Of a stretch of 42,448 nt of DNA, positions 17,136-33,037 are shown piece by piece. The notes beneath the pieces were generated by a model. That model had not been told where the DNA came from. It worked only from the letters and a program-made list of their open reading frames with translations, and did not search any database. This stretch comes from Alphaproteobacteria bacterium (GTDB lineage Bacteria > Pseudomonadota > Alphaproteobacteria > Micavibrionales > Micavibrionaceae), in NCBI GenBank assembly GCA_009995045.1, contig JAACQG010000005.1:1-42448 (forward strand). The letters are read 5' to 3'. How positions within the stretch are numbered: the stretch's first letter is position 1; each line of letters opens with the position of its first letter. A program made the position numbers and the translations under genes.

Positions 17136-20047
17136 GCTGCTGCCTCGCCATCTGAATCATCAAGGGCTGCCCATTCTTTGATGCGTGAGAGATGCTCGTA
17201 ATCATTAAAGCGTGGCAGTTTAGTTGCGCGGGGGATTGCGAAATAGGGGATGTTTTCATCGTTATATGTTTCGATGAGGGTGATGAGGGCGGCTTTTGTG
17301 TCGATGAGCATATCATGCGGGTCGTTTGCCTCTGTCGGTTTGCTGCCGTTTAACACCCAATAGCCGAGATAGGCGCAGGGCGTGGGCGCGATGCCTTCGA
17401 ACCCGCCGTCTTGAACGATGAGTGCCTCGATAGGGAGCTGCGGGTTATCGCCTGTTTCTAATGATTTTTTGGGATAGCTGCCGCCGGATTTATAATCGAT
17501 GATTGCTGCGCCATCTGGTGTTTTGTCGATGCGGTCGGCGCGGCCATAGACGGTGAAATCGGGGGCTGCGCTGGTGATGGTCATGCTGCCTTTGATTTCG
17601 GTTTTATAGGGGGCGGCGTTGTTACGCCACTGCGTTTCTTTATCGAGGAATTGCTGCGTTATTTTTTCAAATCTGGGCCAATAGAAATGCCAATCTTCGG
17701 CGGATTGATTTTCATTTTCGAGATGTGATTGGGCGGATTTTAGGATGATATCGCTTGCGTTGGGCGGGATGTGTTTTGGGTTTTGCGTGATGAAATCATC
17801 AAGGGAGTCGTGCAGAATTTGACCGCGTAGTGCCGCGTCTGCTTCTTTTTCTAGCGGGTCGAGGACGCGCAAGTTCAGAATGCTGTAGGCGTAAATGGAA
17901 TAAGGGTCTTTTAGCCATGTCTCGATTTTTGTGATGGAGAGTTTGGTTGGGCGCGCCGATAAGGGCGGTTTTGGTGCGGGGCGCGTGAATGGCTCTAGCT
18001 CTGTTGTGTGGTCAAGCTCATTTACCCAATATGCGATGTCGTTTTGGATGAGCGTTTTTGGGTTCATCTTTGCGGCGTTGAGCACTGTTTCCAAGCGGGC
18101 GAGCCAGCGGGCGGGGACGGTTGGCGCGCCGTCATTGAGTTTTGAGCGGGTGATGGCGACATTGGGGGCGCATAGCCCTTGGGTGAAGTCATGGGCGGAT
18201 AGGCCGATGCTGCGCTCGCTTCCGGGGAGGCCGAATTCGGCGCGCATGGGGCGTGACATCCATGGGTCGTGGCCGGGGTCGGGTGGCCATGTGCCTTCGT
18301 TAAGACCGCCGAGGATGACGAGGTCGGCGTCGATAAGGCGGGCTTCTAATTGGCCGAGGATTTGCAGGCGAGGATGCGTGCCATAAGTGGGGCGCAATGT
18401 TACGCCGTTTAGGAATTGTTGCAGGATTTGTGGGTATTCTTGCGGGGGTATTTCGGGGAAAGTATGAGCCTGATTGAGGAGTTCGGAGAGAATTGCGCTT
18501 GCCGCGTTTCCGTCTTCCGCCGCCCAGAGTTTATCACCTGCATGGAGGTTTTCGCAAAGGGTGATATGGGCGTTGAGCAGTGTTTTGAATTGTATTTTTT
18601 GATCGGTATTGAACATGCTTAGGAGCGGGGACATGTGCGCAGATATTGTATCGATGAGGGGTTTAAGGGTTTCGTCTTGCCCGTGTTTTTCCCATTGCAA
18701 ATAAAGGCCGTCGATCCCTTTTGGGGGTTTGAATCCGCGCAGCAAAGACGTTTCGAATTGTTTTAGATTTTGCTGCAAATTCGGGTTTGTGAGCGGGTGT
18801 TTCAGCAGGGCAAGCAGGGCGACAGGCGATAGGGATTGTGTGATGGTTTCGATGGACAGGGATAAAAAGCGCCCGACCGATGTTTGTGTTAGCGGTAGGC
18901 CAGCTGAGTCGTCGATTTCGATATTCCATCGGCGGCATGCCATGGCGACACGTTTGGCGAGGTTGCGGTCAGGGGTGATTAATGCGGCGGTTTTTTCGGG
19001 GTGCTGCAGGGTTTCGCGCATCAGGGCGGCGATGATTTGTGCTTCGTTTTGCGGGGTGTCGCAGTCAAAGCGTTTGAGGTTTTGTGTTGCGGTTTTGAAC
19101 GTGTCGGGCGCGAGGTCTTGCCATTGTTTTGTTGTTTGCGCAGTGCGCATCAATTCGCTTGTGAGGTGGCGGCGGTGTTTTGAGGTGTCGTGGTCGTTTA
19201 TATTTGATGGCCATAATGCAACATCTTCGCGGTTGATGTTCATGACAGCTAGGAGATGTTTAAAGCCGTATTGTGGGTGGGATTCGCTGAGTGCGTTCCA
19301 GCTTTCTTCGTCGATATGCTCATCCAAGCCGGGCAGGATGATTTGACCGTTTGGTAAGGTGTGGATCGTGTCAAGGAGGTTTGCGACCGATGGAATTGAG
19401 CCGGTTGTTCCGGCGGCGATGATGCGGCGTTTTGGCTTTGTCTCGCGCCAAAATGTGCTGAGCGCGTTGATGAGGCGGTTGCGGCGGTCGGCGGCGTCGA
19501 TGACATTCATGTCGTTTAAGATGGTCGGCCAGACTTCGCTAAGGATTTTTAGGAAATCGAGGGTGACTTGCCAGTGGGTTGCTAAATCTTCGGGGACGAG
19601 CGAGGCAAGATCTTTGATGTCCAGATTCTCGGTATAGATTTGGTCGAGCAAATGGCCGAGGGTTTTGGCGAGGTTGAGGGCCTGATCAAAGCCGTGGGGG
19701 AAATCTTCGTGTTTGACGATGGCGCGCGCAAGCAGGATTTGGCGCTGCATTCCCGGTAGGGTTGGCGGCAGGTTTAGCAATGTGTCGCTCGCGTTTTGTC
19801 CCGTGATGGACAGGGACAGCTCTTCTTCGTCGATATCGCCCAATGCCTGAAGCGCGGGGAGCATGATCGGTTTGCCGTTATTGAGTTGGAGGAAAGCGTC
19901 GCGCAAGGTTCGACATGCGCGGCGGGTTGGCAAGAGGATGAGGATATCGGGCAGCGATTCGGGTGTATCCTTATATTCGTCGAGAAGGCGGCTTGCGAGG
20001 GCTTTGGCGAAGGGAATGCCTGCGGGGATCGTGAATAGTCTTTGCAT
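17132..20047 (-). CDS. addB: Double-strand break repair protein AddB
   Basis: A 971-aa partner of AddA. The N-terminal inactivated helicase-like part begins LFTIPAGIPFAKALASRLL, and the centre has GLNEGTWPPDPGHDPWMSRPMR, typical of alphaproteobacterial AddB. The C-terminal RecB-like nuclease has GRADRIDKTPDGAAIIDYKSGG. ATG 20047 was chosen because AGGGG lies 5 nt upstream and the family begins here; extending to TTG 20125 would read into a repeat element, and ATG 20062 lacks a clear Shine-Dalgarno. The 12 bp around this ATG are duplicated at 20141-20152. Together with addA it forms the AddAB enzyme. Confidence 0.93.
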   Translation of the reverse strand: MQRLFTIPAGIPFAKALASRLLDEYKDTPESLPDILILLPTRRACRTLRDAFLQLNNGKPIMLPALQALGDIDEEELSLSITGQNASDTLLNLPPTLPGMQRQILLARAIVKHEDFPHGFDQALNLAKTLGHLLDQIYTENLDIKDLASLVPEDLATHWQVTLDFLKILSEVWPTILNDMNVIDAADRRNRLINALSTFWRETKPKRRIIAAGTTGSIPSVANLLDTIHTLPNGQIILPGLDEHIDEESWNALSESHPQYGFKHLLAVMNINREDVALWPSNINDHDTSKHRRHLTSELMRTAQTTKQWQDLAPDTFKTATQNLKRFDCDTPQNEAQIIAALMRETLQHPEKTAALITPDRNLAKRVAMACRRWNIEIDDSAGLPLTQTSVGRFLSLSIETITQSLSPVALLALLKHPLTNPNLQQNLKQFETSLLRGFKPPKGIDGLYLQWEKHGQDETLKPLIDTISAHMSPLLSMFNTDQKIQFKTLLNAHITLCENLHAGDKLWAAEDGNAASAILSELLNQAHTFPEIPPQEYPQILQQFLNGVTLRPTYGTHPRLQILGQLEARLIDADLVILGGLNEGTWPPDPGHDPWMSRPMRAEFGLPGSERSIGLSAHDFTQGLCAPNVAITRSKLNDGAPTVPARWLARLETVLNAAKMNPKTLIQNDIAYWVNELDHTTELEPFTRPAPKPPLSARPTKLSITKIETWLKDPYSIYAYSILNLRVLDPLEKEADAALRGQILHDSLDDFITQNPKHIPPNASDIILKSAQSHLENENQSAEDWHFYWPRFEKITQQFLDKETQWRNNAAPYKTEIKGSMTITSAAPDFTVYGRADRIDKTPDGAAIIDYKSGGSYPKKSLETGDNPQLPIEALIVQDGGFEGIAPTPCAYLGYWVLNGSKPTEANDPHDMLIDTKAALITLIETYNDENIPYFAIPRATKLPRFNDYEHLSRIKEWAALDDSDGEAAA

Positions 20048-20152
20048 TTTATCCCCTGACATCGTTACTACGCTTGAGACGTATTTCAATACGATTTGTC
20101 GCTTGTGCCTTGTCGGCGAATACAATGCTTTGACTGGCTTTTTGCATTTTAT
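20041..20152 (-). repeat. Dispersed palindromic element, copy A (between murU and addB)
   Basis: In gene sense the core reads AGGCACAAGCGAC, then the hairpin CGTATT-GA-AATACG (20093-20080), then AAGCGTAGTAACG; it matches the other two copies across about 60 bp. The interval is bounded by a 12-bp direct repeat, ATAAAATGCAAA in gene sense (20152-20141 and 20052-20041), 100 bp apart. Removing one repeat and the insert leaves the junction TAAAATG, in which the murU stop would almost touch the addB start. The duplicated ATG (20147) opens a 32-codon frame that stops at 20049, one base before the addB ATG. No clear terminal inverted repeats in this copy. Confidence 0.75.
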
Positions 20153-20895
20153 GTCTCCGACAGATCGATTTGTTTATAGGCCGCGTCTACTGCCTCTAAA
20201 TCTTTTGGTGTGCTGATGTGGTGCCACTCGCCGTGATGGATGATGGCGTGGAGGCGGCCTTCGGCCTCGGCTTTGTCCATAAGGGTGAGGTAGGAGAATG
20301 CGTCATCGGGCGCGTCATCGAAAATGCGGGGATGGTTGATGCGCATTGAGGTGAACATATATTCGCCGCTTTTATCAAGGGAGCGGATGGGCAGGCCGTT
20401 TTCGGAAAGGGTGTAGTCGCCTACGCCGTGGGTCAGGGTCATGGAGGCGACGGGTTGTAAGAGGATAAGGATATCCATTGTTTCATCATCCCATGTATCG
20501 CGCATGGCGTTGAGGGTGTTTTGCTGCGCAGGGTTTTGTGCGTTATCCCATAGGCCATCGCCACTTAAGACGTAAAAAGCATCATCAAAATGCTGCAACA
20601 TATTTTTGATTCCGCCGCCTGTATCGAGGAGGTTTTCTTCAAATGTTGTATGGGATTTGAATTCGGGGCGGGCGGATATGCATGCGTTGATTTGATCGGG
20701 CAGGTAATGCGTGTTGAGGGCGATTTCATTGATCCCAGCCACATGAAGATGGTCGAGGGTACGATCGAGCAGGGTTTTGTTGTTTACCGTTACGAGTGGT
20801 TTTGGAGTGTTGTTTGTGTAAGGGCGCAGGCGCGAGCCTAGTCCTGCGGCGAGGATGAATGCTTTGTTGGGAGTTTTGGCGGTATTGGGTGACAT
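20149..20895 (-). CDS. murU: Nucleotidyltransferase, MurU-like (N-acetylmuramate-1-phosphate uridylyltransferase)
   Basis: A 248-aa sugar-nucleotide transferase. The NTP-binding signature is ILAAGLGSRLRPYT with PKPLV; NTHYLPDQI, DTGGGIKNML and VLSGDGLW follow the MurU/RmlA-like pattern. MurU makes UDP-MurNAc in the peptidoglycan salvage route. ATG 20895 shares its A with the tsaE stop (TGATG), so I prefer it to a start 39 nt upstream inside tsaE. In many alphaproteobacteria a sugar kinase (AmgK) lies between tsaE and murU; it is missing here, which leaves the exact substrate less certain. Confidence 0.82.
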   Translation of the reverse strand: MSPNTAKTPNKAFILAAGLGSRLRPYTNNTPKPLVTVNNKTLLDRTLDHLHVAGINEIALNTHYLPDQINACISARPEFKSHTTFEENLLDTGGGIKNMLQHFDDAFYVLSGDGLWDNAQNPAQQNTLNAMRDTWDDETMDILILLQPVASMTLTHGVGDYTLSENGLPIRSLDKSGEYMFTSMRINHPRIFDDAPDDAFSYLTLMDKAEAEGRLHAIIHHGEWHHISTPKDLEAVDAAYKQIDLSET

Positions 20896-21323
20896 CAAAC
20901 CTGCTGTATGTGGATTTTTCTGTGTGTTTCGCAATTGTCGCTGTTTGAGAGGGTGATGTCCAGATATTCGCTGGGTTTATATGCGCCTAAACGCTCGGGC
21001 CATTCGATGATTGTGATGGCGTCGTAGCATGCTTCTTCCCAGCCGAGCTGCAGAATTTCGTCGGGTTCTTCGATGCGATAGAGGTCATAATGATAGATAG
21101 GCGCGGTGTCGCAGTCATAGGTTTGTAAGAGTGTGAAGGTCGGGCTTAGGACTTCGAGGTCGGGATCAGCGCTTAGAGCGCGGATGAGTGCGCGGGCGAA
21201 GACGGTTTTGCCCATACCGAGCGTGCCGTTGAGTAGGATTATTTTTGGTGCGGCGATGGTCGCGGCTAAATCTTGCGCCGCTTTGACCGTGTCGTTTTCG
21301 GATGTTGATGTGATGGTTGTCAT
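20895..21323 (-). CDS. tsaE: tRNA threonylcarbamoyladenosine biosynthesis ATPase TsaE
   Basis: A 142-aa P-loop ATPase that works with TsaB and TsaD in t6A modification of tRNAs reading ANN codons. Walker A is GTLGMGKT (residues ~33-40); the family segments SPTFTLLQTYD, IYHYDLYRI and ITIIEWPERL are all present. Start and stop overlap the neighbours: 4 nt with divL (ATGA) and 1 nt with murU (TGATG), so translation is coupled. Confidence 0.95.
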   Translation of the reverse strand: MTTITSTSENDTVKAAQDLAATIAAPKIILLNGTLGMGKTVFARALIRALSADPDLEVLSPTFTLLQTYDCDTAPIYHYDLYRIEEPDEILQLGWEEACYDAITIIEWPERLGAYKPSEYLDITLSNSDNCETHRKIHIQQV

Positions 21324-23695
21324 GATGCTTTTTTGATGGGCAATTTCAGCGGTGTTTCTTGCGCGGTGAGTGGGATAAACATGGTGACGGTAGTGCCTTT
21401 TTTGTTCTGGCTTTTGATATCAATGCTGCCGCCGTGAAGGGCGATGATGTTTTTCACAAGCGATAGGCCTAGCCCTGCGCCACTGCGGGAGAGGTGTTTG
21501 TCATTGGGGCCGTTTTGGGCGCGCTCGAATGGGGCGAAGACGCGGCTGCGGTCTTCTTTAGGGATGCCGACGCCGTTGTCGATGACTTTGATTTCGAGGC
21601 CGTCTTTTTTGCGTTTCGCGGTGAGTGCAATTTCGCCTTTTTCGGGGGTGAAATTGATGGCGTTGCGAATGACGTTGATGATTGCTTGTTTGAGGCGTTT
21701 TTCATCGGCGGAGATTTTGCCGATATTTTGGGCACAGGTGACTTTGATTTCGATATTCTTTTTGCGGGCCCAATCGCTGACGAGGTCGCTGATGGATTGG
21801 ATGAATGGAAGGACATCGACGTCTTCGTTGTTGAGGGTCATGTATCCAGCTTCGAGGCTTGAGAGGTCAAGGATATCGTTGATGAGGCCGAGGAGGCGTG
21901 TGCTGGCGTCATTGATGTCATGGGTGTATTCTTTTTGGCGGTCATTGAGCTTGCCGAAATATTCCTGATCCAGGATTTCGTTAAAGCCCATAATCGCGTT
22001 GAGCGGTGTGCGCAGTTGATAGGAGACATTGGCGAGGAAGTCGAGTTTAAGTTGTTCGGCGGCTTCAAGGGCTGCGTTTTTTTCGCGCAGGGCGTTTTCA
22101 ACACGCATGGTGTCTGTTACGTCGATATAGGTGATTAGCACGCCGCCATCGGGCAAGGGGACGGTGGAATAGTCGATGAGGCTGCCGTCGGCGCGTCTGA
22201 GGCGGCCTTCATGCATGATGCGGTCTAATCCCTTGGCGATGAGTTCTTCGCGCTTGGCGGGCCATTCTTTTTTGTTGAAGAAGTTTTGTTTTTTATCGAT
22301 TAGTTTCGAGATATGCGGCTCGCCGTTTAAATCTTCGGGGTTAAAGCCCCAGAGGCGACCAAAAGCGGGGTTCCAGAGTTTGAGGCGGCCATCACCCCCA
22401 TACACTGCGACGCCTTCGCCGAGGTTATCGAGTGTTTCTTTTTGCACCGCGATGAGGGTGTTATAGGACGATTCAAGTTCTAGGCGGCTGGTAACGTCTT
22501 CGAAGGTCATCATGAGCCCGCCGAGGGAATGCGGCACGACGAGCATGCGCAGCGCGCTTCCGTCGGGGAGATAGAGCATGTCTTCATGTGCTTTGATCAG
22601 GCCGGTGAACATATCAAGCCAGCTTTGTTTGAAGCGGCGGAAATCGGCTTGTTCAGGGAGGCGGCGGGTTTCGCGGAGTTTTTCCATGAGGTCGCCGAGT
22701 TTTGGTCGCTTGTTGAGCCAGCCTTCTTCGAGGCCCCAGAGTTGGGCGAAGGAGGAATTGTAGAATTCCAAGGATTGGTCGCTGCCGAAGATACCGATGG
22801 CGGATTGGAGTTGTTCCAATAATTCGCGGTTGGATGATTGGAAGCGTTTTAGCTCTTCGCCTACTGATTCGAGGCGGCTGATATCTTGTCCCATGCCGAG
22901 TGTCATTTCGGCAAGCGGGATTGGGGTTTCGCGAAGGCGCATGAAGATGCGTTTGCCACTGATGATGACATGGGCTTCGGATACTTGTTCGATGCCGCTG
23001 TCATGGGCTTTTTTGGCGAGTTCGGCGCCGATGATGGCTTTGTTTTTGATGCTGGCTGATTTTCGGGTTGCGCCGGTTAATTCTTTTTGCTGCTCAATGA
23101 TCACTTCTTCTTTTTCGCTGAGTGCGTTTGAATAGGCGTGGTTGACCCAGATGATTGTTTGGTTTTCATCGCGCAGCCAACAGGGGAAGGGGAAGTTATC
23201 GAGGGCTTCTCTGTATTTCTTTTGCTGGCTATCGGTTTCGCGTTTGTTGATTTCGAAATTTTTCTGTGCGAGGCATTCATCGGTGATGTCTTCGACCCAG
23301 ATGATGTCAAAGCGCTCGCGGGCATCCAAGTCATTGCCTTGGGAGCCTGAGAATTTGTAGTGCTTTGATTCGTCGAATCGTTGGGTTATGAGTGTGAAAT
23401 GCGTTGCCTTTTCCTGAAGACGGTCGAAATACCCTTCGAGGGCGGCAGAATCGCTGGGGGGGAGGACGCTTTGGATATCGCCGAGGGTTTTTATCGTCTC
23501 TAAGCCGAGGATGTCGCAGAACCCTTGGGAATAGACAACGGAACCATCATTGGCAAAGCCGCAATATTCGCCAGGGAATGCGGTGATGAATGCTTCCAGG
23601 CGGGCTTTTTCGCGCAGATATTTATCCTCACCAGACAGTTTGGTGAGGAGTTTTTTAAGCGGCGAATTGTTTGATGTCGAAACGGTTTTGCTCAC
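21320..23695 (-). CDS. divL: PAS-domain atypical histidine kinase DivL (Tyr in the H-box)
   Basis: A 791-aa kinase-like protein. Several PAS modules fill residues ~35-530 (for example VAVYGGDGRLKLWNPAFGRLWGF). The dimerisation segment reads FLANVSYQLRTPLNAIMGF, with Tyr559 (codon 22021-22019) where histidine kinases have His; this substitution defines Caulobacter DivL, which binds DivK and controls CckA rather than acting as a normal kinase. The ATPase domain follows, with IKVIDNGVGIPKEDRSRVF (N/G1 boxes) and GAGLGLSLVKNII (G2). No strong membrane helix is seen at the N-terminus. The start is GTG 23695, 12 nt after purU. It overlaps tsaE by 4 nt. Length is close to Caulobacter DivL (769 aa). 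Confidence 0.88.
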   Translation of the reverse strand: MSKTVSTSNNSPLKKLLTKLSGEDKYLREKARLEAFITAFPGEYCGFANDGSVVYSQGFCDILGLETIKTLGDIQSVLPPSDSAALEGYFDRLQEKATHFTLITQRFDESKHYKFSGSQGNDLDARERFDIIWVEDITDECLAQKNFEINKRETDSQQKKYREALDNFPFPCWLRDENQTIIWVNHAYSNALSEKEEVIIEQQKELTGATRKSASIKNKAIIGAELAKKAHDSGIEQVSEAHVIISGKRIFMRLRETPIPLAEMTLGMGQDISRLESVGEELKRFQSSNRELLEQLQSAIGIFGSDQSLEFYNSSFAQLWGLEEGWLNKRPKLGDLMEKLRETRRLPEQADFRRFKQSWLDMFTGLIKAHEDMLYLPDGSALRMLVVPHSLGGLMMTFEDVTSRLELESSYNTLIAVQKETLDNLGEGVAVYGGDGRLKLWNPAFGRLWGFNPEDLNGEPHISKLIDKKQNFFNKKEWPAKREELIAKGLDRIMHEGRLRRADGSLIDYSTVPLPDGGVLITYIDVTDTMRVENALREKNAALEAAEQLKLDFLANVSYQLRTPLNAIMGFNEILDQEYFGKLNDRQKEYTHDINDASTRLLGLINDILDLSSLEAGYMTLNNEDVDVLPFIQSISDLVSDWARKKNIEIKVTCAQNIGKISADEKRLKQAIINVIRNAINFTPEKGEIALTAKRKKDGLEIKVIDNGVGIPKEDRSRVFAPFERAQNGPNDKHLSRSGAGLGLSLVKNIIALHGGSIDIKSQNKKGTTVTMFIPLTAQETPLKLPIKKAS

Positions 23696-23707
23696 AATGA
23701 ATTGAGC

Positions 23708-24547
23708 TTACAAAATTACGGTGCGTGCGTCATGTAAAAATATGCGTCTTTCTGCAAGCATATTGATGGCGCGGGCTAAAACGCGTGATTCGATGTCGCG
23801 TCCGGCGGCTTGCATTTTCTTAGGAGTATAGGCATGGGTGATGCGCATGATCTCCTGTTCGATGATTGGGCCTTCATCCAAATCAGACGATGCGAAATGA
23901 GCGGTTGCGCCGATGATTTTGACGCCGCGCTCATAGGCTTGATGATAGGGTTTTGCCCCTTTGAAACCGGGCAGGAAAGAATGGTGGATATTGATGATGC
24001 GCCCTTCGAATGCGTTAGAGAATTCTGTGCTGAGGATTTGCATGTAGCGGGCAAGAGCGATGAGCTCGCTGCCTGTTTCTTCGATGATCTTTTTAACGGC
24101 GGCTTCTTGTTGCGGTTTTGTCTCTTTTGTAACGGGGAGATGGTGGAAGGGAATGTTGTGATGCTCCGCGATGTCACGGCATGTATCGTGGTTTGAGACG
24201 ATGGCGGTGATTTCGATGGGCAGGAGTTTGCTTTTTTGGCGATAGAGGAGGTCGTTGAGGCAATGGTCTTCTTTTGACACCATGATCAGGGTTTTGAGCG
24301 GTTTGGAGAGGTCTTTGACTTCCCATGTCATGGCGAAGCTATCGGCGGTTTGGGTGAAACGTTCGGTGAAACGATCTGCGGATCCGTCCTGTAGGGGGGA
24401 GAAGACGACGCGCATGAAAAATTGTCCTGAAAGCGGGTCGTTGAACTGCGCGGATTCCTCGATGTTGCATTCGTTGTTGGCAAGGCATGTTGCAACGGCG
24501 GCAACGATGCCGGGTTTATCGTCGCAATGGAGGCGGAGTACGTTCAT
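23708..24547 (-). CDS. purU: Formyltetrahydrofolate deformylase
   Basis: A 279-aa enzyme hydrolysing 10-formyl-THF to THF and formate, balancing one-carbon pools. The N-terminal ACT domain spans ~1-80 (LRLHCDDKPGIVAAVATCLA). The C-terminal formyltransferase-like domain holds NIHHSFLPGFKGAKPYHQA, IGATAHFASSDLDEGPIIEQ and the terminal SRVLARAINMLAERRIFLHD. ATG 24547 directly abuts a palindromic element (copy B), whose end provides the AAAAGAAAG stretch before the start. divL follows after 12 nt, so the cell-cycle gene may be transcribed from the purU promoter. Confidence 0.95.
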   Translation of the reverse strand: MNVLRLHCDDKPGIVAAVATCLANNECNIEESAQFNDPLSGQFFMRVVFSPLQDGSADRFTERFTQTADSFAMTWEVKDLSKPLKTLIMVSKEDHCLNDLLYRQKSKLLPIEITAIVSNHDTCRDIAEHHNIPFHHLPVTKETKPQQEAAVKKIIEETGSELIALARYMQILSTEFSNAFEGRIINIHHSFLPGFKGAKPYHQAYERGVKIIGATAHFASSDLDEGPIIEQEIMRITHAYTPKKMQAAGRDIESRVLARAINMLAERRIFLHDARTVIL

Positions 24548-24649
24548 AAGTCGCTTTCTTTTGCTTTTTTCACATTGGTGCGTGCTACGCGTATTTTTAA
24601 TACGAGCCGCCGCTTGTGCCTAGTGAAAAAACAAAATTATGTGACTTAA
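24546..24649 (-). repeat. Dispersed palindromic element, copy B (before purU)
   Basis: 104 bp with imperfect terminal inverted repeats of about 27 bp: 24546-24573 and 24623-24649. The inner 9 bp of each arm (TTTTTTCAC / GTGAAAAAA) match exactly, as do AAGTC / GACTT at the ends. The centre in gene sense is GGCACAAGCGGC, then hairpin CGTATT-AAA-AATACG (24604-24590), then CGTAGCACGCAC. It fills most of the 126-nt gap between the FMN reductase stop and the purU start, and its left arm overlaps the last bases of the purU start codon. About 8 bp are deleted right of the hairpin relative to copies A and C. Confidence 0.78.
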
Positions 24650-24673
24650 TATGCTGAAAGTGAAGTCAATGTT

Positions 24674-25246: not shown

Positions 25247-25259
25247 ATGTGTTTATTCC

Positions 25260-26570
25260 TTAATATCTGTAATCGTCTTTTTTGAACGGTCCTTTTACAT
25301 CGACGTCGATGTATTTGGCTTGTTCTTCAGATAGAGAGCTAAGTTTCGCGCCAACCTTTTCAAGGTGGAGGGCGGCAACTTTTTCATCGAGGTGTTTAGG
25401 AAGCACGTAAACTTTGTTTTCGTAGTTATCGGCGTTTTTCCAAAGCTCGATCTGTGCCAATGTTTGGTTGGTGAAAGATGCGCTCATCACGAAGGATGGG
25501 TGACCCGTTGCACAACCGAGATTGACGAGGCGTCCTTCGGCGAGGAGCAAGATGCGCTTGCCGCTTGGGAATTCGATTTGGTCGACTTGTGGTTTGATGT
25601 TTGTCCATTTCATGTTGCGAAGTGGCTCGACCTGAATTTCGTTATCGAAGTGACCGATGTTACATACGATTGCGTTGTCTTTCATCTCGCGCATGTGGTC
25701 AACGGTGATGATGTCTTTGTTTCCGGTTGTTGTGATGAAGATATCGGCGCGGGGTGCGGCGTCTTCCATTGTGACAACTTCGAACCCTTCCATTGCGGCC
25801 TGAAGGGCGCAGATTGGATCGACTTCGGAAACCAGAACGCGACAACCAGCAGAGCGAAGGGATTCGGCGGTGCCTTTACCAACATCACCGAAACCGGCAA
25901 CCATGGCGACTTTACCGGACATCATGACGTCCGTTGCGCGGCGGATCGCATCCACAGCGGATTCGCGACAGCCATATTTATTGTCGAATTTAGATTTTGT
26001 AACGGAATCGTTCACGTTAATGGCGGGACATTTTAATGTGCCCGCTTTCGCCATTTCATAGAGACGGTGAACGCCAGTTGTTGTTTCTTCGGATAGCCCT
26101 TTGATATCTTTCATCAATTCGGGAAATTTTTCATGCATGCGAACGGTGAGGTCAGCGCCATCATCAAGGATCATGTTGGGTGTCCAGCCATTGGGGCCAG
26201 TGATTGTTTGGTCGATTGCCCAGATAAACTCTTCTTCGCTCATGCCTTTTTTGGCGAAGACGGGGGTGCCAGCGGCGGCAACGGCGGCTGCGGCGTGGTC
26301 TTGGGTGGAGAAGATGTTACATGAGCTCCAGCGAACAGTTGCGCCAAGCTCTTGTAATGTTTCGATGAGAACGGCGGTTTGGATGGTCATATGAAGACAG
26401 CCAACGATGCGTGCGCCTTCTAATGGTTTTTTGCCTTTATATTCTTCACGGGTGGCCATGAGACCCGGCATTTCAATCTCTGCCATCTCAATTTCTTTGC
26501 GCCCCCACTCGGCTAGGTTTATATCTGTGATCCAGTAATCATTTTCTAAGCTTTGTGGTAGTGCAGACAT
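25260..26570 (-). CDS. ahcY: Adenosylhomocysteinase (SAH hydrolase)
   Basis: A 436-aa NAD-dependent enzyme splitting S-adenosylhomocysteine into adenosine and homocysteine, relieving product inhibition of methyltransferases. Substrate-site segments are [29 protein letters not shown] and the conserved HFDNEIQV. The NAD-binding Rossmann motif is [18 protein letters not shown]. The family C-terminus (PFKKDDYRY) is intact. The Shine-Dalgarno GGAG lies about 9 nt before ATG 26570. The 5' leader contains a stable hairpin (26601-26625). Confidence 0.97.
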
Positions 26571-26600
26571 TTTGCTTTTCTCCGTAAAATTAAGTACAAT

Positions 26601-26625
26601 GGCATAGTTGGTGTTTTTCTATGCC
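26601..26625 (-). other. Hairpin in ahcY leader
   Basis: GGCATAG (26601-26607) and CTATGCC (26619-26625) form a 7-bp stem with an 11-nt loop, 31 nt before the ahcY start on the minus strand. It does not match an SAH or SAM riboswitch that I recognise. It may be an operator or an mRNA-stabilising stem. Confidence 0.4.
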
Positions 26626-26688
26626 AAATCAAGTATGAATACACAAAGTTTTTATCTAAAATTAATCTTTTGTTAACTAAGCAGAGAG

Positions 26689-26694
26689 TATAAT
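26689..26694 (+). promoter_or_regulatory. -10 box for a probably leaderless gene
   Basis: TATAAT ends 7 nt before the ATG at 26702, placing the predicted transcription start at or next to that ATG. No good -35 is seen (nearest TTGTTA is too close). AGGG (26695-26698) is only 3 nt from the ATG, too near for a normal ribosome site. Confidence 0.5.
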
Positions 26695-26701
26695 AGGGTC
26701 A

Positions 26702-27121
26702 ATGGTTAAAGGATTTAACGCAGAAAGCGAAAAACCGCAGTTTATTTATAAGCAAACGGTTAAAAGCGAAAATGTTTACGAAATCCTTATGTTTCGCTCT
26801 AAAGGCGGGCCAGGACAGGGAAAATACGAAATTGTCGGTGATTATACAGTCATAGACGAAGACGAAAATTTAGAACTGTCTGAGCAGAAAGTAAAAAATG
26901 TCATCAGCCTGTTAAATGGCAAAGACGATTTAAAGGAATTGGGTAACTTAACCAAAACAAGGGTTTTATTTACGATAGTTCCAAAGAAGTCTGAAGATGA
27001 TCCCACAAAAATAATTTTCCGCAATCATGACGGAAAGGGGACATCAGAAGAAAATGCGGTGTTAACAATAGAAAAAGGTGTTTTAAATGAATCCCAGATC
27101 AGAATTCCAGAATCGGAGTAA
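26702..27121 (+). CDS. Small hypothetical protein (139 aa), probably leaderless
   Basis: An acidic, Lys/Glu-rich soluble protein with no signal peptide or membrane helix and no Cys. Visible segments: KSENVYEILMFRSKGGPGQGKYEIVGDYTVIDED and, near the end, KIIFRNHDGKGTSEENAVLTI, suggestive of a small beta-rich fold. I recognise no family. It is the first of three small same-strand genes; its end overlaps the next gene by 35 nt in another frame. It is divergent from ahcY (131-nt gap). A consensus -10 and its isolation support it being real. Confidence 0.6.
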   Translation: MVKGFNAESEKPQFIYKQTVKSENVYEILMFRSKGGPGQGKYEIVGDYTVIDEDENLELSEQKVKNVISLLNGKDDLKELGNLTKTRVLFTIVPKKSEDDPTKIIFRNHDGKGTSEENAVLTIEKGVLNESQIRIPESE

Positions 27122-27269
27122 TCCAGAACAGCGCCTTGCAGCTTTAGTTGGTGCTACCTTATCAGCATATAACTCGGTTGGAGGTCCTCCTCCAGGTCTT
27201 AAGCTTGGTGCTGAAAGACATGCTACAATTGAAACTAGTGGCCCAAGCCCAATGGATGGAAAATTCTAA
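27087..27269 (+). CDS. Small hypothetical peptide (60 aa)
   Basis: AAGG (27075-27078) is 8 nt before ATG 27087. The peptide is Pro/Gly/Ser-rich, with EQRLAALVGATLSAYNSVGG followed by PPPGLKLGAERHAT, and no membrane helix. It overlaps the preceding gene by 35 nt. Its leader is nearly the same as that of the next gene, 240 bp downstream, which supports translation of both. No family recognised; a Gly-Gly after a helical stretch could be a double-glycine leader, but this is weak. Confidence 0.5.
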   Translation: MNPRSEFQNRSNPEQRLAALVGATLSAYNSVGGPPPGLKLGAERHATIETSGPSPMDGKF

Positions 27270-27326
27270 TGTAATGTTTCAATCTGCGTAAAAAAATAAA
27301 AAATTTAAAAAATAGAGGTGTTATAA

Positions 27327-27548
27327 ATGAAACCATTAATTCAAAGCTTTAGTACTGTTCCCATGTTTAACCCAACTCGTGCGCCTGCGCATGAGGGATT
27401 GGGCGGCAGTTTCGCAAACGGTAATTCTTCAATTGTTCAAGATGTTGACCCTGCAGCTGTTGATGCGGCTATTCCTACGCGGAGTGTTGACGCTGTTAAC
27501 AGTTTTGCGCCAGTTTTACCTGCGTATGAAGCGGCTCAACCTGCTTAA
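27327..27548 (+). CDS. Small hypothetical peptide (73 aa)
   Basis: A strong Shine-Dalgarno GAGGTG (27315-27320) precedes ATG 27327. The peptide is Ala/Pro/Val-rich with no Cys, and includes APAHEGLGGSFANG and DPAAVDAAIPTRSVDAVN; the C-terminus is low-complexity (LPAYEAAQPA). Its TAA stop interlocks with the rapZ stop on the other strand through TTAA (27545-27548). Unknown function. Confidence 0.5.
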   Translation: MKPLIQSFSTVPMFNPTRAPAHEGLGGSFANGNSSIVQDVDPAAVDAAIPTRSVDAVNSFAPVLPAYEAAQPA

Positions 27549-28384
27549 TCTTTTAAATCGCGATGCTCGATATGGGTTTGGAGGCTTTGGCCTTTGAGCC
27601 ACTGTCCGAGTGTTTCCACTGTAAAAACTGATCTATGGCGGCCACCGGTGCAGCCGATGGCTATTGTGAGGTAGCTTTTCCCTTCGTGAGCATATCGGGG
27701 GATGAGCGGCTCTAATAGCGATTTAAAGTTTTCGATGAATGTTTCGAAATCTTTATCCCCCTTTATATAATCTCCAACATCCTTATCTTTGCCCGTTTTG
27801 GGCTTTAAATCTTTTACCCAATGCGGGTTTTGGAGGAAGCGGACATCCATGACGATGTCGGCTTCGCGCGGTATGCCGCCCCGAAAGCCAAAGGACATGA
27901 GGGATATGATGAGGTCTTTTTGGTTGTCGGGTTTGAAATGTCCTTCGAGGATATGGCGTAGATCGTGGATGCTGAGTTGTGATGTGTCGATGACGATGTC
28001 GGCGTTTTCGCGCAATGGATCCATGATGGCGCGTTCCTCGGCGATGCCCAAAGCGACCGGACGATCGGCGGCGAGTGGATGGCGACGGCGGGTTTCGGTG
28101 AAGCGTTTATGCAATACCGTGTTATCGCATGTCACAAAGAGCAATTTAGCGTCGTGATGTTTTGCGGTGTCGAGCAGGGTTTGCACGTCGAATTCCCGGC
28201 TTCTTGTGTCTATGCCGATTGCGATGGGAGTGTTTGGGGCGTGGCTTGATTTTAGGAGATTAGGCAAGAGGGAGAGGGGCAGATTATCGAATGCTTCGAA
28301 GCCGAAATCTTCGAGCGTTTTTAAAACGGTTGCTAACCCTGCGCCAGATAAGCCGGTGACGATGAGAAGCGGGTTTTTATGCAT
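27545..28384 (-). CDS. rapZ: RNase adapter protein RapZ with degenerate P-loop
   Basis: A 279-aa RapZ/YvcJ-type protein. The N-terminal kinase-like domain starts LLIVTGLSGAGLATVLKTLE: the Walker A site reads G11-L-S-G-A-G-L17-A18, where relatives have Gly-Lys-Ser/Thr, so the nucleotide-phosphate Lys is missing. EDFGFEAFDNLPLSLLPNL is conserved. The C-terminal RNA/sensor domain is intact (FGFRGGIPREADIVMDVRFLQNP and IGCTGGRHRSVFTVE). RapZ guides RNase E to GlmZ in enterics and binds GlcN6P; in alphaproteobacteria its role is less clear. It starts 1 nt after chvG. The usual hprK between chvG and rapZ, and ptsN/hpr genes beyond, are absent. Confidence 0.92.
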   Translation of the reverse strand: MHKNPLLIVTGLSGAGLATVLKTLEDFGFEAFDNLPLSLLPNLLKSSHAPNTPIAIGIDTRSREFDVQTLLDTAKHHDAKLLFVTCDNTVLHKRFTETRRRHPLAADRPVALGIAEERAIMDPLRENADIVIDTSQLSIHDLRHILEGHFKPDNQKDLIISLMSFGFRGGIPREADIVMDVRFLQNPHWVKDLKPKTGKDKDVGDYIKGDKDFETFIENFKSLLEPLIPRYAHEGKSYLTIAIGCTGGRHRSVFTVETLGQWLKGQSLQTHIEHRDLKD

Positions 28385-28385
28385 C

Positions 28386-30119
28386 TTATTTAGCCTTTAA
28401 TATGACGTTAAAACGGGCGCCGATGATGTTGCCGTCTGCGTCTCTGCGGTTTTCGGCGAAGATTTCACCGCGATGTGATTCAATGATTTGTTTGGAGATA
28501 GAGAGGCCGAGGCCTGAATTTTGGCCGTAAAATTCGTCCGGGCGCTGGGTGTAGAAGCGATCAAATATGGTTTCTAGTTTGTTTTCCGGTATGCCTTGTC
28601 CTTCATCATCGATGTGGATTGCGATGAGGTTTTCACCGCGGTTGATTGTAATTGTGACGGTGTCCCCTTCTTTTGAAAAGGAAAGTGCGTTGTCGATGAG
28701 GTTTTGGAAGACTTGGAGTAATCGCGTTTTTGCGCCTCTTGTGATGCTATTTTGCCCCTTGTTTGTTACGAGGCGAATTGTTTTTCCGTTGGTTGTTTTA
28801 AATGTCTCTTCATTTTCTTTGGTGGTGGTTTTACGCTGTATTGGATCTTTATAGCTTTCCAATAGCTGACATATAATGTCGTTGATTTTGATTGTGCTGA
28901 AGGCTTCGCGTGATAATTCAGCGTCAAGGCGGGAGGCGGATGAGATGTCTGTTATAAGCCTGTCCATGCGCTGGATATCGTGATTGATAATCGCCATTAG
29001 CTTTTCGCGGTCTTCTTGTTTGCTCACGCGTTGCAGTGTTTCAATCGCGCTTTTGAGAGAGGTTAGAGGGTTTTTTAGCTCATGTGAGACATCGGCGGCA
29101 AAACTCTCAATTGAATCCATTTTTGCCCATAATGCATCGGTCATTGAACGCAATACGACAGAGAGGTCACCGATTTCATCATAACGTTGGCTGAGGTCTG
29201 GGATGTCGTCACCTGTTGCACGTCCTGTTCGAACGGCTTCGGCGGCTTTGGCGAGTTTTTTTAATGGGTTTGCGATGGCATTGGCTAAGAAAATGGACAG
29301 GAATAGTGTGATGAGTAATGTCGCGAGAAAGATTTTTATAATGCCGCTCCATACTTCGCCAATGGCGGCTTTTATATCACGCCCTTCGCGCAGGATTATA
29401 ATCGCGCCAATTGTCTCGTCATTTTGAATGATAGGCAGGCCAGCCGATAGCAGGATTTCATCGTCGGCATCTTGCCATGCAGACAGGCTTGGTAAGCCAG
29501 AGAGTGCGTTGTCTAGGTCGGGCACGTTTAAGCCGTTGTCAGTGTTTTCAGGATATTTTGGGATTGCTTTGGTATCCGGGAGCAAGTTTGTAATGATGCC
29601 TGCTGTGTTTTTTAAGATTTTAATAGATTGCAATTCTTCGCGGCGGGAGGATTTGTTAGAGGATGCTTTTTGGCTGAAAACCAGATTGGCATTTTTGTCG
29701 TAAACTTGAACGTGTTGATCTGTTCCCTTTATGATTTGTGCGATTTTGTCTTTGGTTGTTTGAGCATTTATATCTGATCCACTGATGGCAATGGCGATGA
29801 TATCGGCTTCGCGCTCAAAATTTTCGAGTTTTGTTTCAATGATGTTGTTTTGATATTGTCCAAGATAGAGCACACCAAATAAGAGTGTAATCAAAGCGAT
29901 CATATTGACAGATATGATTTTTAGGGTGAGGCTTGTGATCCTGCGTTCCGGGCCTCCCCAATATAGATCGAAGATATGATCAAGTTCGGGCAGTTCGGGT
30001 TGTTTGGGGACGTAGCGGAACCAGCGGGCTTTACTCTTCCGAGAATCTGTAGCCTGCGCCGTAGACTGCTTCGATACGGTCGAAATCTGGATCGGTTTTT
30101 TTGAATTTTTGTCGGACAC
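28386..30119 (-). CDS. chvG: Sensor histidine kinase, ChvG-like
   Basis: A 577-aa membrane kinase. TM1 is at ~68-88 (VNMIALITLLFGVLYLGQYQ), then a periplasmic domain (~90-255), TM2 at ~260-285 (IFLATLLITLFLSIFLANAI), HAMP (NPLKKLAKAAEAVRTG), the H-box FAADVSHELKNPLTSLKSA with His346, and ATPase motifs IHIDDEGQGIPENKLE and GLGLSISKQII. ChvG proteins sense acid or envelope stress and phosphorylate ChvI. The start is uncertain: the only canonical codon ahead of TM1 is GTG 30119, which lies 89 nt inside chvI and lacks a Shine-Dalgarno. The SLTLKIISVN and YLGQY signatures support ChvG over other kinases. Confidence 0.88.
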   Translation of the reverse strand: MSDKNSKKPIQISTVSKQSTAQATDSRKSKARWFRYVPKQPELPELDHIFDLYWGGPERRITSLTLKIISVNMIALITLLFGVLYLGQYQNNIIETKLENFEREADIIAIAISGSDINAQTTKDKIAQIIKGTDQHVQVYDKNANLVFSQKASSNKSSRREELQSIKILKNTAGIITNLLPDTKAIPKYPENTDNGLNVPDLDNALSGLPSLSAWQDADDEILLSAGLPIIQNDETIGAIIILREGRDIKAAIGEVWSGIIKIFLATLLITLFLSIFLANAIANPLKKLAKAAEAVRTGRATGDDIPDLSQRYDEIGDLSVVLRSMTDALWAKMDSIESFAADVSHELKNPLTSLKSAIETLQRVSKQEDREKLMAIINHDIQRMDRLITDISSASRLDAELSREAFSTIKINDIICQLLESYKDPIQRKTTTKENEETFKTTNGKTIRLVTNKGQNSITRGAKTRLLQVFQNLIDNALSFSKEGDTVTITINRGENLIAIHIDDEGQGIPENKLETIFDRFYTQRPDEFYGQNSGLGLSISKQIIESHRGEIFAENRRDADGNIIGARFNVILKAK

Positions 30120-30726
30120 GTTTTATATGCGAATCTATTGTTCTGTCATCGACATAAATTGTCTCACCATATGCCGCTTCAATCAACTGGTCTCTGCTTT
30201 TTACGTGTCCTGGATTTGCGGTGAGTGTTTTAAGAAGGAGGTATTCGGTGACGGTAAGCGGGACTGGCTCGCCTTTCCATGCGCATAAATAGCGGTCGTC
30301 ATCGAGGATCATATCACCAAGACGAATGGTTTTTTCTTCGTTTTGTGCTTCGTTTTGAAGTTTTTGGCGTCTTAACAATGTGCGGATGCGTTCGATGAGC
30401 AGGCGTTGGGAGAATGGTTTGGTGATGTAATCATCCGCGCCCATGCGAAGACCAAGGACTTGGTCGACTTCGTCATCTTTTGAAGTGAGAAATATGATTG
30501 GAAGGGTTTGGTTGGTTTTGCGGATGTTTTCGAGGAGCTCTAAGCCGTCCATGCGCGGCATTTTTACATCCAGCACAGCTAGGTTTGGTTTTTCTTCTTG
30601 AATGCCCTGAAGTCCAGCTTCGCCATCGTTGAATGTTTTGACGATAAAGCCTTCAGATTCCAACGCCATGGATACTGAGGTTGTGATATTTCTATCGTCA
30701 TCGACTAGGACTATTTTTTCGCTCAT
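30031..30726 (-). CDS. chvI: OmpR-family response regulator, ChvI-like
   Basis: A 231-aa regulator. The receiver domain has the acidic pocket VDDD (residues 8-11), phosphoacceptor Asp53 (VLDVKMPRMDG), LTSKDD and KPF. The winged-helix DNA-binding domain is at ~130-228 (VTEYLLLKTLTANPG, DRTIDSHIKRVRQKFK). Alphaproteobacterial ChvI/ExoS-ChvI type regulators control envelope, acid response and exopolysaccharide. It begins 2 nt after folC and runs into chvG, so it may be transcribed with the trpB-accD-folC genes. Confidence 0.92.
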   Translation of the reverse strand: MSEKIVLVDDDRNITTSVSMALESEGFIVKTFNDGEAGLQGIQEEKPNLAVLDVKMPRMDGLELLENIRKTNQTLPIIFLTSKDDEVDQVLGLRMGADDYITKPFSQRLLIERIRTLLRRQKLQNEAQNEEKTIRLGDMILDDDRYLCAWKGEPVPLTVTEYLLLKTLTANPGHVKSRDQLIEAAYGETIYVDDRTIDSHIKRVRQKFKKTDPDFDRIEAVYGAGYRFSEE

Positions 30727-30728
30727 TC

Positions 30729-32006
30729 TTAATTATGCCCTGAATTCTCCAAATCATGCAAGACATGTCCCGCAAGGTAGAGTGAGCCAGTGATGAGGAT
30801 ATGCGCTGGAGGGTCTGATTTTAGAAGGGTTAGCGCGTCTTTGAATGAATTTGCGGTTAAATGCGGTGTTGCGGTGATCGCGTTGCTGAGCTCGCTTGTT
30901 TTTAATGCGAGTGGTTCGTTGGGCAATTGTGTTGCGATGAGGGTGTCGCATTGATCAATGAATGTTCTTACGAAATTTTTAGGGTCTTTGTGTTTCATCA
31001 TGCATAGGATGATTGCGATTTTGCCGTCTTTTTTTAGTGATTTGAGATGTTCGGCGATTGCTTTTCCCGCGTCTTCGTTATGACCGCCATCGAGCCAGAT
31101 TGAAGTGGTGTCGGGAAGGTCATAGGCTTTTGAAGGGAGTTTTTGCATGCGTGCGGGCCAGTGGATGGATTGGAGGCCTTGGTTGATTTGCTCGCGTGTT
31201 ACGGGGAATTGATCCTGCAGGGTATCAATGGTGGTGAGCGCGGTGTTTATATTGCCGATCTGATGCTGGCCTTTGAGGGCGGGCGGGTCGTATTGATCGA
31301 GATGTGGTGCGCTTTGCACCAATGTTGCACCAACTTTTTTGGCTTGTCTTTCAAAGACTTCGTATACGTCTTCGTTGTTTTGTGCGCCGATAATGCAAGG
31401 CGTGTGATCCTTCATGATCCCTGCTTTTTCGGAGGCGACGAATTCATATGTATCGCCTAAAAACTCAGTATGGTCGAGGCCGATTGTATTAATGATTGTG
31501 GCTGAGGCTGCGGCGGCTGGGATGATATTTGTGCAATCAAGGCGCCCGCCCATGCCTACTTCCAAGAGGCATATATCAGCGGGGGTGCGGGCGAAAGCGG
31601 CGAAGGCGATCGCGGTTGTGATTTCAAAGAATGTGCAGCTATCGCCGCCGTTTTTGTCCAAGGCTTCGTCGATGAGGGATTCGAGGCTTTCATTGTCGAT
31701 CTGTTTCCCGTTTAAAACGATCCTTTCGTTGAAGCGGATGAGGTGTGGGGATGTGTATGTGTGGACTTTATATCCTGCTGCTTCGTATATGCTTTTTAGG
31801 GTGGCGATGATTGAGCCCTTGCCGTTTGTTCCTGCGACGTGGATGACGGGGGGGAGTTTGATGTGTGGATTGTCGAATGCGTTTAGCAGGTTGAGAAAAG
31901 GCGGTCGAAAGGACAGGTCGATCGTTTTGTCACGATTGAGAGTGTAGAGCGTGTAGAGCTTTTCTTCTAATGTTTTTGACGGGTGTTTGAGGTCGCTTTC
32001 GTACAT
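30729..32006 (-). CDS. folC: Bifunctional dihydrofolate/folylpolyglutamate synthase
   Basis: A 425-aa Mur-ligase-like enzyme adding Glu to dihydropteroate and to folates. ATP-binding loop HVAGTNGKGS (residues ~58-67); TSPHLIRFNERI and LLEVGMGGRLDCTNI are family hallmarks; the C-terminal domain carries WLDGGHNEDAGKAIAEHL. It starts 17 nt after accD, matching the common accD-folC pair. Confidence 0.96.
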   Translation of the reverse strand: MYESDLKHPSKTLEEKLYTLYTLNRDKTIDLSFRPPFLNLLNAFDNPHIKLPPVIHVAGTNGKGSIIATLKSIYEAAGYKVHTYTSPHLIRFNERIVLNGKQIDNESLESLIDEALDKNGGDSCTFFEITTAIAFAAFARTPADICLLEVGMGGRLDCTNIIPAAAASATIINTIGLDHTEFLGDTYEFVASEKAGIMKDHTPCIIGAQNNEDVYEVFERQAKKVGATLVQSAPHLDQYDPPALKGQHQIGNINTALTTIDTLQDQFPVTREQINQGLQSIHWPARMQKLPSKAYDLPDTTSIWLDGGHNEDAGKAIAEHLKSLKKDGKIAIILCMMKHKDPKNFVRTFIDQCDTLIATQLPNEPLALKTSELSNAITATPHLTANSFKDALTLLKSDPPAHILITGSLYLAGHVLHDLENSGHN

Positions 32007-32023
32007 TTTTGCTATGTACTTTT

Positions 32024-32890
32024 CTATGCGGCTTTTTTGATGGGTTGCATGAGGAGGCTTAGCATGCGGCCTAATGTTTCATGCAACTCACTGCGCTGTA
32101 CGACCTGATCAACGATTCCGTGTTCGCGTAGGTATTCCGCCGTTTGGAAATCATCGGGGAGGGTTTCGCGGACGGTTTCTTCGATCACGCGGCGTCCGGC
32201 AAAGCCAATTGTCGCGCCTGGTTCGGCGATGTGGATATCACCAACCATTGCAAATGAGGCGCTTACGCCGCCTGTTGTCGGATCGGTGAGAAGGACGATA
32301 TATGGAAGTTTTGCGTCTTTGACCATTTCCACGGCAATGATGGAGCGCGGCATTTGGATAAGCGAGAGCATGCCTTCTTGCATGCGTGCGCCGCCGGATG
32401 CGGGAATGACGATGAGGGCGGATTTTGTTTTGACCGCTTCTTCTGCGGCCTTGACGATGCTTTCGCCCACGCGTGCGCCCATAGAGCCGCCCATGAAGCT
32501 GAAATTAAAGGCGGCGATGACGGTTTTATTGCCGCCAATTGTGCCTGTTGCGATTGTGATGGCGTCTTTGAGGCCTGTTTTGTTTTGGGTCTCTTTGAGG
32601 CGGTCGGCGTATTTTTTGCGATCTTTGAATTTGAGCGGGTCATGCGCGACTTCGGGGAGGTCGAGGGTTTTGTAGTCGCCTTTATCGAACATGAGTTTGA
32701 GACGTTCAGGGACGGTAATTCGAAGGTGATGGCCGCAGTGATAGCAAACTTTGTCATTGGCTTCGAGGTCGCGGTTGAAAAGCATACCTTCGCATTTGGG
32801 GCATTTGTCCCATAGATTGTCGGGGATGTCCTTTTGATCGCTCACGATTGAGCGGATTTTTGGGGGCAGTATGTCAGAGAGCCAGTTCAT
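32024..32890 (-). CDS. accD: Acetyl-CoA carboxylase carboxyltransferase subunit beta
   Basis: A 288-aa subunit that, with AccA, transfers the carboxyl group from biotin to acetyl-CoA, the first step of fatty acid synthesis. The N-terminal zinc ribbon is CPKC (residues ~30-33) and CYHCGHHL (~49-56). The crotonase-like domain has GSMGARVGESIVKAAE and ASGGARMQEGMLSLIQM, the oxyanion region. ATG 32890 overlaps the end of palindromic element C, which supplies the AAAGGA Shine-Dalgarno. Confidence 0.97.
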   Translation of the reverse strand: MNWLSDILPPKIRSIVSDQKDIPDNLWDKCPKCEGMLFNRDLEANDKVCYHCGHHLRITVPERLKLMFDKGDYKTLDLPEVAHDPLKFKDRKKYADRLKETQNKTGLKDAITIATGTIGGNKTVIAAFNFSFMGGSMGARVGESIVKAAEEAVKTKSALIVIPASGGARMQEGMLSLIQMPRSIIAVEMVKDAKLPYIVLLTDPTTGGVSASFAMVGDIHIAEPGATIGFAGRRVIEETVRETLPDDFQTAEYLREHGIVDQVVQRSELHETLGRMLSLLMQPIKKAA

Positions 32891-32993
32891 TTGTCATTTC
32901 CTTTTGCTTTTTCAGTGCGTTGCTGCACTTCTAAAGTATTAAAATACTCGTCGTCGTTTGCGCCTGCTGGAAAACCAAAATTAAACGACAAAA
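32889..32993 (-). repeat. Dispersed palindromic element, copy C (before accD)
   Basis: 105 bp with terminal inverted repeats of 27 bp, 21 of 27 matching (32889-32915 and 32967-32993). In gene sense the core is AGGCGCAAACGAC, hairpin AGTATT-TT-AATACT (32948-32935), then AAGTGCAGCAACGCAC, which adds a second stem AGTGC/GCACT (32914-32929). The hairpin differs from copies A and B (CGTATT/AATACG) by a compensating base pair. A 10-bp direct repeat with one mismatch (TTCATTTGTC at 32886-32895, TTCATTTATC at 32999-33008) flanks it and contains the start codon. The upstream ATG (33003) opens a 38-codon frame whose TGA overlaps the accD ATG. Confidence 0.8.
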
Positions 32994-33037
32994 CTATCTT
33001 CATTTATCGGTGTTTATGAGGTTTTTGAGGCTATAAG

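Follow-up and report, generated by a model that had tools for sequence, protein, structure and literature searches.

The window analysed here (the whole stretch of 42,448 nucleotides, positions 1 to 42,448 of the forward strand of contig JAACQG010000005.1, assembly GCA_009995045.1) comes from an alphaproteobacterium related to Micavibrio and carries three copies, A, B and C, of a hairpin element, each on the minus strand at the 5′ side of a gene. We read this element, with a probability of about two in three (0.66), as part of a Correia-like superfamily of mobile hairpin miniature inverted-repeat transposable elements (MITEs) of about 105 nt, whose sense transcript folds and acts as a leader or processing element. 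The copies, their parts and the genes that follow them are given here, with reference to two covariance models, R2 and R3, described below.

20037..20135, minus strand: copy A hairpin, between nucleotidyltransferase-like and addB-like genes; ends AGTC...GACT; outside the seeds of R2 and R3
24546..24649, minus strand: copy B hairpin before purU; 3′ arm AAAAGAAAGCGACTT, then ATG 24547–24545; R2 E 4e-14
32889..32993, minus strand: copy C hairpin before accD; 3′ arm AAAAGGAAATGACAAA, then ATG 32890–32888
32959..32965, minus strand: 5′ core box AGGCGCA of copy C, at the position of the family AAGGC box
32936..32947, minus strand: apical stem GTATT/AATAC of copy C, helix 4 of the family, 95.4% of cells paired over 76 copies
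17132..20047, minus strand: addB-like gene 3′ of copy A, a PD-(D/E)XK nuclease protein (PF12705); start chosen by us
23708..24547, minus strand: purU, 3′ of copy B; ACT and formyl transferase domains
32024..32890, minus strand: accD, 3′ of copy C; AccD domain match

An earlier note, made from the letters of this DNA alone, had placed three minus-strand copies here, joined by the box GGC(A/G)CAA(G/A)CG(A/G)C and by a GTATT/AATAC stem with a compensating C-G/A-T change; positions, orientation, box and stem are all seen in the sequence. Domain matches bore out addB, purU and accD as the downstream genes, the first as addB-like. The homology, which the note had limited to about 60 bp, extends over the whole element, a hairpin of about 105 nt. 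Terminal inverted repeats are present in B and C, as had been reported; their restriction to these two does not hold, copy A being also complementary at its ends. B and C stand directly before a minus-strand start codon, as the note had claimed of all three, while the presumed addB start of copy A (ATG 20047–20045) sits within the 3′ arm and the longest open reading frame (ORF) opens at a TTG farther upstream. Five copies folded as RNA gave long hairpins, with z-scores of −2.1 to −5.7 against dinucleotide shuffles.

We first give the extent of the family. A strict motif had five occurrences across the assembly (1.89 Mb, 94% complete), of which three are in the window; the reversed control pattern of this motif had none. 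Model R2 was built from a seed alignment (A4) of copy C, two more source-genome copies and two from another genus. It matched 40 of 95 genomes (source genome included) in 28 of 54 genera at E ≤ 0.01; with a ceiling of 40 scored candidates per genome, genome G034 reached at least 40 matches. Copy C (R2 E 2e-33, R3 E 2.8e-20) is a seed member of both models, so only copies A (R2 E 5e-11; R3 match 20033–20143, E 2.7e-9) and B are independent R2 matches; any further R2 match in the window was either the antisense side of copy C or copy B or one of three weak ones, with E of 0.5 or above. From 128 and 67 model matches, 26 and 4 antisense duplicates were dropped and short-locus copies refetched, which gave 150 copies from 25 genomes; arm statistics use 146 of these (lengths 100–120) and the orientation count the first 102. 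Model R3 was built from 76 copies hand-picked from the 150, all of the Micavibrio order, and matched 17 places of the source genome at E ≤ 0.005 (21 listed rows minus three antisense sides and one weak row). No conserved reading frame was found in the element: any one of the six frames is open in at most 26 of 146 copies, and 10 translated element frames had no match in NCBIfam. Curated Rfam models gave no match over gathering scores in the window, and searches of 6 and 12 loci at E ≤ 1 gave one sub-threshold match, outside the element.

Read 5′ to 3′, the consensus consists of TATAGTCG(Y)TT, GA, TTTTATTTTTGCAC, AAGGC, RC..GC.GACGA, the apical stem, AGGA.GC.GAA.GY, AACGC and a 3′ arm that ends like AAAAGGAARYGACTATA. 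Its sense strand can fold into a 10-pair outer stem, a small internal loop, a 13-pair stem, a purine-rich core of isolated pairs and G/A mismatches, and the apical stem; the core boxes of the family are AAGGC (5′) and CAACGC (3′). Changes on both sides were observed in 33 of 34 pairs. Paired cells reached 90.9%, against 72.5% in shuffled and 33–46% in slid controls, and double-change cells numbered 470, against 133 in shuffles and 49–101 in slid controls. The native arms paired at −27.6 kcal/mol and swapped arms at −12.8 kcal/mol (146 copies). As judged from these alignments, the arm letters turn over while pairing is kept.

The core pairs beside the AAGGC/AACGC loop covary as well (G-C 43, A-U 26; C-G 57, U-A 12). 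By our reading of the sequences, the two loop strands of type I copies are GACGA and, facing it, RAGGA; a C-G pair between G/A mismatches could form there. A strict type I core pattern, searched in one genome per GTDB species, retrieved 30 stretches, all from metagenome-assembled genomes of Micavibrio sp. or Alphaproteobacteria bacterium. In type II copies (for instance in G034, G017, G053 and G072 and at L213 of the source genome) the loop strands are exchanged, with GAGGA 5′ and GACGA 3′, as if the type I module had been turned by 180 degrees. Such G/A core pairs can form on the sense strand only. Apart from this, the apical part of a copy before a sense ORF (L086:2219–2384, G003) has about 55 extra bases, including a smaller palindrome, CAACGCCTTTGGCGTTG, and a divergent copy (L105:2794–2905, G017) lies about 90 bases from another copy and just before what by eye appears to be a tRNA gene.

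Similar copies also recur within genomes: 185 copy pairs, involving 81 copies, were at least 78% identical (best 96%), half of them in G034 and one in G000. Identity in these pairs was about 0.75–1.0 inside the element and about 0.3 beyond TAGTC and GACTA. Since similar copies of one genome lose identity at TAGTC...GACTA, the element is or was mobile. TAGT...ACTA ends were found in 57 of the 150 copies, and in this class TA stands just outside the 5′ end of 35 and the 3′ end of 38; this TA, which may belong to the palindrome, is compatible with a TA target duplication and does not prove it. With terminal inverted repeats, dispersed copies with sharp ends and no conserved reading frame, the element has the characters of a MITE. 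Of 58 genomes, 14 had a match to Y1 transposase (PF01797); G036 and G008, both with copies, had one each, and G000 had a broken one below the cut-off. There was no match to it in five copy-rich genomes, G034, G016, G003, G006 and G032. Y1/RAYT is thus an inconsistent partner and was rejected as the mover. Separately, six scattered R3 matches of equal score, 130 bases each, in G532 (L307) suggest a recent burst.

We then examined placement at genes. A sense ORF starts at −15 to +60 from the 3′ end of the match in 98 of the 150 copies and at −4 to +3 in 68; for ORFs on the antisense side the figures are 36 and 2. The start lies at −12 to +4 in 77 copies, so the proximity to start codons noticed in the window extends to about half of the set, and many have a Shine-Dalgarno sequence in the 3′ arm, with AAAGGA present in 39 of these 77. 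Neighbouring genes, taken from simple ORF calls at the first 102 copies, are oriented (+,+) at 54 copies, (+,−) at 20, (−,+) at 19 and (−,−) at 5, with 4 incomplete. The downstream proteins include 15 clusters that cover 32 of 98, and by their N-termini the genes read as accD, fabF, ruvC, der, obgE, pheT, purB, gpsA, tal and others. The same gene was hit across genera in 16 pairs, against a mean of 3.3 and a maximum of 8 in 15 samples of other ORFs of the same loci. The accD copies of G000 and G006 have the box CAAACGACGA in common and differ in both arms, with pairing kept; AccD proteins within the genus are 77–80% identical. A copy in G001 sits about 1 kb behind accD. On these comparisons, copies come and go and the same genes are repeatedly hit or kept. 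In two genera one gene (MADxFxEVDxxxxQER) is preceded by a variant element (L085:1796–1906 and L065:3611–3725) whose 5′ arm contains TTCAT and whose core contains ATGARYGAC; the 5′ and core boxes look complementary in both. The covariance-model search that the earlier note had proposed thus returned many copies, covarying stems, sharp ends and sense orientation. Its suggestion of a mobile or regulatory palindromic family is supported: mobility and structure can be read from the sequence, and we infer RNase III processing and regulation.

In wider searches, R3 reached E ≤ 1e-4 in 28 of the 385 class genomes (24 outside the order) and in 54 of the 398 phylum genomes (48 outside the class), with at most 9 candidates scored per genome; R3 rewards any palindrome of about 110 nt, so these are model counts, and 45 matches were read as letters. 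They were chosen among the best listed, after four duplicate, partial or second rows were dropped: 25 come from 14 other alphaproteobacterial genomes and 20 from 14 that lie outside the class. For the AAGGC and CAACGCT boxes, which lie outside the arms, the highest possible score is 19.5; the 20 non-alpha matches reached 17.7 and the 25 other-alpha ones 12.0, with −2.8 and −4.7, respectively, for their reverse complements. All 20 non-alpha matches exceeded the 99th percentile of their own shuffles, and none of their 20 reverse complements passed. Since the matches were picked by a model that contains the boxes, this evidence is strong and not independent. Core boxes within a hairpin of about 105–130 nt were found both in Micavibrio-order copies and in Correia. 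L293–L296 contain TATAGTGGATTAAATTTAAATCAGGACAA, a Correia repeat printed in passages of PMC5039591 and PMC9778887. Among the matches listed, the best place of L293 was in two N. gonorrhoeae records, at 96.4% identity; its core reads ACAAGGCG...GGCAACGCCGT, and it aligns to R3 at 62.9 bits. TATAG(T) termini occur in L293–L296 and in several alpha matches and are not visible in many other non-alpha matches. In G481, outside the class, the similarity of the L301–L303 copies continues past the hairpin into the flanks (TTGATCTTTCAGGAT...GGGTTCATCTAAACGC), and one of these copies has another model match (L301:1050–1161) directly next to it; the unit of this genome is thus longer than the hairpin.

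The element is real, mobile and structured. We place it as a new branch within a Correia-like kind whose reach seems far wider than described. Structure and sense placement together indicate a co-transcribed leader element. Because its 3′ arm brings a ribosome-binding site, an element inserted before a gene would be tolerated and sometimes kept. Once co-transcribed, the hairpin would set how the RNA is processed or how stable it is (through RNase III, by analogy with NEMIS) and how exposed the start region is; a long stem that ends at a ribosome-binding site is a plausible RNase III substrate. A trans-acting factor, either a transposase or an RNA-binding protein, would read the core and the ends, which would account for their conservation while the arm letters are free.

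Several observations weigh against the favoured reading. In 52 of the 150 copies no sense start lies at −15 to +60. Of 30 accD loci, fetched from 56 matches, just two were preceded by the element according to R3 (G000 and G006, the latter of the same genus), plus G032, of another genus and read separately. No mover was found, Y1 (PF01797) being the sole transposase family searched. The predicted unpaired probability of the Shine-Dalgarno sequence is lower in 55 copies (0.33) than in 212 control genes (0.49). In the box test, just 14 of the 25 other-alpha matches pass, and random hairpins reach 14.8 at the 99.9th percentile and 19.5 at maximum (20,000 trials). Finally, G.U outnumbers A.C in the arms by 203 to 44 cells, or 84 to 28 minus one ancestral G.U column, yet by just 13 to 8 when columns are counted, which makes the case for RNA rather than single-stranded DNA a moderate one.

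One rival is a purely selfish hairpin MITE. Its fold would be needed just to transpose, perhaps out of single-stranded DNA, and its gene-sense, start-proximal copies would be tolerated by selection for their ribosome-binding site. The groups of similar copies with sharp ends, the TA outside the TAGT...ACTA ends, the patchy occupancy of accD and the 20 of 102 copies between convergent genes all agree with it. However, same-gene copies in different genera exceed the control, and the G000 and G006 accD copies keep their common box and pairing despite differing arms, which fits retention; we consider the purely selfish explanation unlikely.

A domesticated translational switch, in which temperature, a protein or an upstream ribosome would open arms that otherwise bury the Shine-Dalgarno sequence, appears distinctly improbable. 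It draws on the position of the Shine-Dalgarno sequence in the 3′ arm and on a variant in which an alternative helix could form between the 5′ box and the internal CAAGCGAC box: this pairing is natively slightly better (−8.5 versus −7.5 kcal/mol; 103 of 146 copies beat the swap mean), but the signal is weak and confounded by subfamily (same-genome swaps −7.9), and the Shine-Dalgarno GG falls in an internal loop of the consensus. Strong predicted burial is no commoner than in controls (15% versus 14%) and predicted start codon exposure does not differ (0.44 versus 0.46), so neither a plain off-switch, nor simple sequestration, nor strong burial is supported. There is very little to recommend a promoter donor with an incidental hairpin, its terminal TATAGT serving as a −10 box as in Correia elements: many copies have such ends and promoters are reported at CREE ends (in part of PMC2649163), but the ends vary with pairing kept (TTTTGTC, CGTC, GTTG), TATAGT is present in 0 of 3 window copies and the core covariation is left unexplained.

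Beyond the leader reading itself, we tentatively entertain a wider picture, which is on balance doubtful: an ancient phylum-wide hairpin family with Correia as one branch, in which the conserved unit would lie in the folded purine-rich core with non-canonical G/A pairs, rather than in the arms, and would exist in two versions turned by 180 degrees. An undiscovered factor might read this core in trans for moving, processing or both, and hosts might repeatedly recruit the ready-made leader with its ribosome-binding site before the same housekeeping genes. Relatives of Correia in many other lineages, with well over 100 covarying copies, bring the mover and the core reader within reach of comparative genomics and of tests in harmless hosts. 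In addition, the family offers a natural set of exchangeable 5′ leaders, with the same core and freely changing paired arms.

Several known systems resemble the element. Rickettsia palindromic elements (RPE), palindromes of about 95–146 bp, likewise occur in Alphaproteobacteria (according to parts of PMC2229807 and PMC2267715); RPE1, the sole RPE family tested, was rejected, TIGR01045 being over its cut-off in 0 of 38 genomes. CGTC repetitive extragenic palindromes (REPs) are also common in Alphaproteobacteria, and passages of PMC3733652 describe them as having no known dedicated transposase and report CGTC-1 REPs in Micavibrio aeruginosavorus, a genome called devoid of mobile elements in a passage of PMC3189940. 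A CGTC REP (20–40 bp, unpaired CGTC, stem of 8–9 bp) was ruled out by the length of about 105 bp and the paired ends. ERIC and other hairpin MITEs of about 100–200 bp, compared by description, are likewise small repeats with long stem-loop transcripts, and ERIC is reported to affect mRNA stability (both from part of PMC2229807). The MITE of the Thiomargarita dsrA intron, also compared by description, has TATAG ends and a long hairpin and was likened by its authors to Correia elements (a passage of PMC4853749).

The literature searched described neither a Micavibrio occurrence of the family nor a superfamily around Correia; the Correia repeat was given as Neisseria-only, with its mobilizing mechanism undetermined, in part of a 2009 paper (PMC2649163), and the available text of a 2024 review of prokaryotic MITEs (PMC10969869) does not join Correia with elements elsewhere. 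Strict Correia/NEMIS, with an inverted 26-bp repeat TATAGTGGATTAA..., was rejected: the arms read TATAGTCGYTTGATTTT and variants, and the TATAGT end alone is in common. The letters of the arms are unrelated, TATAGTGGATTAA... in Correia and TATAGTCGYTTGA... in the Micavibrio-order copies, L293 departs from standard pairing at several inner core pairs of R3, and about half of the Micavibrio-order copies, unlike Correia, lie at start codons. Nevertheless, Correia/NEMIS/CREE elements share the size class, inverted repeats on the 26-bp scale, the TATAGT...ACTATA ends of many copies and the boxes ACAAGGCG and GGCAACGC at the same places, and were retrieved by the Micavibrio-order model; CREE measures 104–108 bp, and RNase III binding or cleavage of its transcribed stem is reported (same part of PMC2649163). 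The family that the earlier note had left unrecognised is best placed with the Correia/NEMIS-type hairpin MITEs.

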